Assembly: GCA_025463925.1 (NCBI GenBank)
Contig: JAODBK010000014.1
Span: forward strand, 1 to 64,000
Direction: 5' to 3'
DNA from: Acidimicrobiales bacterium
GTDB lineage: Bacteria > Actinomycetota > Acidimicrobiia > Acidimicrobiales > AC-14
Length of the DNA: 64,000 nucleotides
The notes under the pieces are model-generated. The model was not told where the DNA came from and did no database searches. It saw only the letters and a program-made list of their open reading frames with translations. The position numbers were made by a program, and so were the translations under genes. Positions within the stretch are counted from its first letter, which is position 1; every line of letters starts with the position of its first letter. Of the stretch, positions 47,914 to 48,435 are shown one piece after another.

Positions 47914-48435
47914 TCAGGGGAGCGCCGCCAGGACGTCGGCGATGGGGGCGTGGTCGGCCGACGTACGGTCGACGTGGTCGTAGTGCACGACGTCGCCCGG
48001 GCCGACGACGAAGGTGCCACCGAGCTGGTCGACGCGCTTTCCGGGCTTCTTGGTGTGGAACCCGCGCTTGCGCGTCGCCATCGTCGCCCGCCACGTCCGC
48101 GGCGTCATGATCCGGACGCCGACGCGGGGGAGTGATGCCGCCCGGGCGGCAGCGCCGTCGTCGTCGACGAGAACCGGGAACGGGATGTCCTCCTCGGCCA
48201 TGAAGTTCCGGGCGTAGTCGAGGTTGCCGGTGCCGATGGCGACGAGCTCGGCGCCCCGGCTGCGAATGTCGTCATAGGAGCGTCGCAACTGCGACGCGTG
48301 CTCGCGGCAGTGCAGTCAACCGAAGTGCCGCAGGAAGACGAGGATCACCGGCCGCTCGGCCCAAAGATCGCCCAACCGGTGGTCGGCCCCGTCGGCTCCG
48401 GGGAGCGTCATCGCGGAGAGTGCGGCGAGATCCAT
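47914..48435 (-). CDS. AhpC/TSA-like redox protein, probable selenoprotein (Sec40)
   Basis: Read from ATG (complement of 48433-48435), which has AAGGAG 7 bases upstream, the frame gives MDLAALSAMTLPGADG, then RPVILVFLRHFG, an in-frame TGA (complement of 48316-48318, codon 40), LHCREHASQL, and continues open to the stop at 47914. With TGA as selenocysteine the protein has 173 residues and a UxxC site exactly where AhpC/TSA-like (PRXL2-type) relatives have CxxC in FGCxxCREH. A strong stem-loop follows the TGA. Likely a thiol peroxidase or thiol oxidoreductase. Alternative: a nonsense pseudogene, less likely because the frame is intact on both sides. Translation from an internal ATG (complement 48286-48288) would lose the active site. 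Confidence 0.8.
48280..48297 (-). promoter_or_regulatory. Candidate bacterial SECIS stem-loop
   Basis: In mRNA sense GCGUCGCAGUUGCGACGC is a perfect inverted repeat, drawn as a 6-bp stem with loop CAGUUG that carries the GU expected in bacterial SECIS apical loops. It begins 18 bases after the UGA codon, placing the loop G about 27 bases downstream, within the known spacing range. Confidence 0.65.

Follow-up and report, generated by a model that had tools for sequence, protein, structure and literature searches.

The window analysed here is a stretch of 64,000 nucleotides belonging to contig C59 of a draft actinobacterial genome (4.08 Mb in 119 contigs, 96.7% complete, 3.1% contamination). 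It contains, on the reverse strand, a gene whose reading frame runs from MDLAALSAM through VILVFLRHFG, a TGA codon and LHCREHASQLR to LAALP and the terminal stop. Translation reproduces what had been predicted from the sequence, namely a frame that is open except for one TGA at codon 40, located on the first Cys column of the family motif, and the strong Shine-Dalgarno sequence preceding the ATG is likewise present (Table 1). Reading the TGA as selenocysteine (Sec, U) gives FGULHC, a UxxC motif. As also anticipated, a gene caller is left with a 124-residue fragment only, and the corresponding entry in the list of open reading frames lacks the UxxC. Genes for an acyl-CoA ligase and a luciferase-like monooxygenase lie upstream, and a GGDEF/STAS gene is convergent downstream. 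A search for a conserved operon found that these neighbours are not kept around the homologues. AMP-ligase genes near three homologues (L081, L022 and L023) were considered and rejected, the matches being weak and giving no clear orthologues.

Table 1. Features of the selenoprotein gene, in window coordinates
Feature	Position	Strand	Remark
Selenoprotein gene	48435-47914	-	173 residues; Sec is residue 40; stop TGA at 47916-47914
Recoded UGA (Sec40), position 1 of UxxC	48318-48316	-	Column holds UGA or Cys in all homologues
TGC codon, Cys43 of UxxC	48307..48309	-	Invariant in alignment; resolving role inferred
SECIS apical hairpin	48297-48280	-	Covariation and synonymous-recoding test
Shine-Dalgarno AAGGAG	48448-48443	-	7 nt 5' of the ATG at 48435
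Spurious 124-residue ORF, TTG start	47914..48288	-	From the mechanical ORF list

The hairpin is found exactly at the place given in the original prediction. It has the sequence GCGUCGC-AGUU-GCGACGC with 7 base pairs, follows the UGA after an 18-nt spacer, and has a loop that begins 25 nt past the UGA; a hairpin at the same distance is present in 33 UGA copies of the gene. The folding energy by itself is unremarkable (z = -0.58), and significance was judged by covariation and synonymous recoding in place of energy. Across an alignment of 32 UGA homologues, the paired fraction of cells is 94.6% compared with 79.9% after shuffling, changes on both sides occur in six of the seven stem pairs, and 28 cells show double changes against 7.6. 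Sliding the stem by 1 to 3 columns leaves far less pairing. When the window gene is recoded synonymously, seven of 20,000 sequences give all seven pairs together with the AGTT loop. Of 231 cells 219 are paired, against a null mean of 142.7 (sd 6.1, maximum 163) from recodings drawn with pooled codon usage. The inner 5 bp with the AGTT loop occur in 31 of 33 UGA copies (null mean 0.16, maximum 2), a test that is selected on this feature since the 33 copies were picked as carriers of CAGTTG. A codon count offsets this selection, as CAG-TTG is the sole codon pair by which UGA copies encode Gln-Leu. The loop overlies these Gln-Leu codons, and every one of the 33 UGA copies with Gln-Leu here uses CAG-TTG, unlike the four Cys copies with Gln-Leu, which have CAG-CTG or CAA-CTG instead; because the sequences are related, these counts are not independent events. 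Elsewhere in the same genes TTG accounts for 6.5% of Leu codons, and the whole window holds a single instance of the pattern TGA-N24-CAGTTG. The Rfam model SECIS_1 gives no match, and is uninformative because no control genome gave a match either. Judged by covariation and against synonymous recoding, the hairpin is far beyond chance.

The exact AGUU-type loop is absent from 16 more distant UGA copies. About ten of these, with the motif RHLAULPC or RHIHULPC (L030-L032, L034-L036, L038, L041, L042 and L047; RH[LI][AH]ULPC), have by eye another G-containing candidate hairpin, resembling GUCGC-CGUGC-GCGAC and longer in its loop, which may represent a second type of SECIS within the family.

Homologues were collected from two samples. 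A homologue occurs in 21 of the 298 genomes sampled from the order, with UGA at the codon-40 column in 20 (the window genome included) and Cys in one. Among 396 genomes of the phylum the number is 30, which besides the window genome comprises 25 with UGA and four with Cys. Two further Cys copies (L022 and L023), 57-60% identical, come from named actinobacterial metagenome-assembled genomes, so that UGA is found in 45 genomes and Cys in seven. No residue other than Sec (UGA) or Cys occupies this column in the homologues sampled, in line with the original prediction, and proteins down to about 30% identity keep the UGA at the same position. Arg36, Sec/Cys40, Cys43 and Asp91 are invariant in the alignment. 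Mapped on a maximum-likelihood tree, the Sec/Cys label has to change three times, and well-supported branches force these changes. In a genome listed outside the class of the window genome, two tandem UGA copies lie at L082:3623-4716 (also L052), with identities of 62% and 53% to the window gene; together with the tree, they hint at a possible transfer between classes.

All four genes for Sec biosynthesis and insertion, for which a search of the genome had been proposed, are found. The tRNA-Sec gene (selC) is on contig C54, with a score of 68 bits, which is over the cut-off, and ARAGORN concurs with anticodon TCA. A contig break interrupts selA, whose two pieces occupy the ends of contigs C29 and C95 and cover consecutive ranges of the model (61-257 and 273-454). 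The same gene is read up to ...GPPAWL at one contig end and from RQTLAAGAALVTFSGDKLLGG at the other, and from the two frames it follows that at least one base is missing between them. Directly downstream of selA on C95 is selB, and selD (320 bits) is on C2. Selenoproteins had been thought uncommon in actinobacteria of this type. This expectation is wrong for the order, where 182 of the 298 sampled genomes have a tRNA-Sec match over the cut-off and Sec is therefore common.

The form of the gene follows the Sec trait, with tRNA-Sec in 41 of 45 UGA-form genomes versus one of seven Cys-form genomes (Fisher p = 7e-5); the genomes are drafts, and absences are therefore weak evidence. Of the four UGA-form genomes without a tRNA-Sec match, three have selA and selB over the cut-off. 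The fourth (G365, 98% complete) has no tRNA-Sec, no selA, and a selB match below the cut-off only. The Cys-form genomes G291 and G419 and those of L022 and L023 show no selA and no selB match over the cut-off. The remaining three (G345, G546 and G573, with L073, L068 and L069, respectively) retain selA and selB, and acquisition of the Cys form thus needs no loss of the whole trait; tRNA-Sec is matched over the cut-off in G345, and not in G546 or G573.

A profile search combined with inspection gives at least three further UGA selenoprotein candidates in the same genome. One is a UxxC paralogue with the motif FLRGFGUPFC (L088, C26:94714-95016), which has a UGA codon and a CAG-TTG SECIS loop with a covarying stem; it is about 40% identical to the window protein over 87-90 residues, and its C-terminal half is shorter. 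The other two are candidates by motif alone, a PrxQ/Bcp-like protein with STPGUT of the TxxU type (L093, C94:10571-10891) and a protein with ASWUGC that resembles the UGC Prx/ResA type (L094, C33:30438-30728).

The protein matches Pfam AhpC-TSA_2 (PF13911) with 61.4 bits (1e-16), over the gathering cut-off of 27, and also matches AhpC-TSA and Redoxin. The NCBIfam model NF040769, 'SelL-related redox protein', is matched over nearly its full length with 111.4 bits, below its cut-off of 120. The model is also matched by each of the 44 homologues in the alignment, and L057 (128.6) and L030 (145.8) pass the cut-off. An AlphaFold model based on a 44-row alignment (pLDDT 95, pTM 0.91) has a thioredoxin fold, with Sec40 immediately before helix 41-52. 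In a ranking of PDB folds, human prostamide/prostaglandin F synthase (9usa) is best, followed by PrxQ/Bcp and ResA. The peroxiredoxin signature PxxxT(S)xxC/U is absent from the window protein, where the sequence is VFLRHFGU with His at the Thr position. The original designation 'AhpC/TSA-like' thus holds for the superfamily and not for the function, because PxxxTxxC is lacking, the nearest model is SelL-related, and the nearest fold is that of prostamide/prostaglandin F synthase.

We conclude that the window gene encodes a selenol oxidoreductase of Prx-like, SelL-related type, produced through recoding of UGA, with a probability of about 0.96. The recoding context, the SECIS hairpin, the Sec machinery, the Sec/Cys exchange and the fold on which this reading stands are all established computationally. 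A sequencing or assembly error, in which the codon is really TGC or TGT, could be imagined in a 119-contig draft since TGA is one base away from either, as could a dead gene with a premature stop. However, 45 genomes share the UGA at this column, and the SECIS loop is kept with UGA and lost with Cys. Because independent genomes carry the same UGA plus a co-evolving SECIS, sequencing error is excluded, and the intact and conserved remainder of the frame argues against a pseudogene; judged by this conservation across genomes, both appear refuted for practical purposes, and we give them next to no credence. The same minimal weight is assigned to a true stop at the UGA, with the 124-residue TTG frame and/or a 39-residue peptide as products. 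This agrees with the output of gene callers, but cuts a thioredoxin fold through its active site, where Cys homologues read straight through, and selection for CAG-TTG would not be expected. Residual UGA read-through is present in many bacteria, and the codon could in principle be read without Sec, by mis-insertion of Cys or through a Trp-type change of the code. Against this, non-UGA homologues have Cys and never Trp at the column, the gene ends on UGA as its final stop, and the UGA form accompanies tRNA-Sec and has a SECIS hairpin downstream, which makes such a reading very improbable.

A different matter is whether the Sec-containing product is a dedicated peroxidase rather than a thiol-disulfide oxidoreductase, which is compatible with recoding. 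The Pfam AhpC-TSA and Redoxin matches, and PrxQ/Bcp among the top folds, speak for peroxiredoxin function. The UxxC architecture and the sequence FLRHFGU in place of PxxxTxxC do not, nor does the human prostamide/prostaglandin F synthase, which is both the best fold and the sole near-full-length sequence match. We regard a dedicated peroxidase as a serious possibility that falls short of even odds. The missing PxxxTxxC signature, the fold matches and the invariant residues together favour a Prx-like selenol/thiol oxidoreductase.

For this oxidoreductase, we propose that the gene is translated at full length, with SelB carrying Sec-tRNA-Sec binding to the hairpin while the ribosome is at UGA codon 40, which would lead to insertion of Sec, and with the terminal UGA serving as the stop. 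The 173-residue product would be a thioredoxin-fold oxidoreductase (Prx-like, SelL-related, AhpC-TSA_2), probably cytosolic. In the favoured chemistry, which we infer along with location, substrate and reductant, the selenolate of Sec40, placed at the N-terminal end of helix 41-52, would attack an oxidised substrate, either a peroxide or a disulfide. Cys43 would then resolve the selenenyl sulfide, and thioredoxin or cellular thiols would re-reduce the protein.

Standard gene calling breaks the gene in two and drops its active site, and dozens of related genomes are expected to be affected likewise. A clean natural data set on the retention and loss of Sec is provided by the Sec/Cys pairs, together with the co-occurrence of tRNA-Sec and the trace that the SECIS leaves at codon level. 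With at least four selenoprotein candidates, the genome shows selenium use to be ordinary, not exceptional, in this actinobacterial order.

Human prostamide/prostaglandin F synthase, which we take to be a member of the eukaryotic PRXL2/SelU family, is the only protein matched in sequence over nearly the full length, and the match is weak (E 9e-5, about 23% identity). As the best fold match it scores E 3.9e-12 and TM 0.83/0.88 (9us9 and 9usa). According to the titles of these entries, Cys44 and Cys47 are redox residues, a CxxC close in position to the UxxC of the window protein, but with Cys in the human enzyme. The group might be a large family of actinobacterial selenoproteins, for the most part mis-annotated, that represents the Sec-containing bacterial counterpart of PRXL2/SelU (prostamide/prostaglandin F synthase), in which Sec prevails and repeated losses to Cys took place, some together with the whole Sec trait. 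We put this forward tentatively, as a proposal that is rather unlikely to hold.

In SelL, which is a Prx-like selenoprotein, there are two Sec residues, placed two positions apart (PMC3316567). The window protein shares with the SelL-related proteins the near-full-length match to NF040769, but differs in the sub-cut-off score and in having a single Sec. Whereas SelL proper has UxxU, the window protein and all UGA homologues have UxxC and none has UxxU, and the protein is thus not SelL in the strict sense. Prx-like selenoproteins with UxxC and with UxxU are listed families (PMC2398784, PMC13188914, PMC9312934). Among these, the UxxC protein 'Prx-like 1' (pfam00578), known from marine metagenome data (PMC2398784, PMC13188914), has in common with the window protein the AhpC-TSA fold, UxxC, a bacterial SECIS and Cys homologues, in a comparison made at the level of these features. 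The text of the 2026 review (PMC13188914) makes no mention of actinobacteria or NF040769, and in the papers searched Acidimicrobiia and selenocysteine come together in a sponge microbiome study alone, in which selenocysteine is mentioned once. For Blastococcus, also an actinobacterium, an AhpC selenoprotein decoded from UAG has been described (PMC5330540). The kind of protein described here is itself already known, and the window gene is a solid new example within a widespread and mostly uncharacterised group of bacterial selenoproteins.
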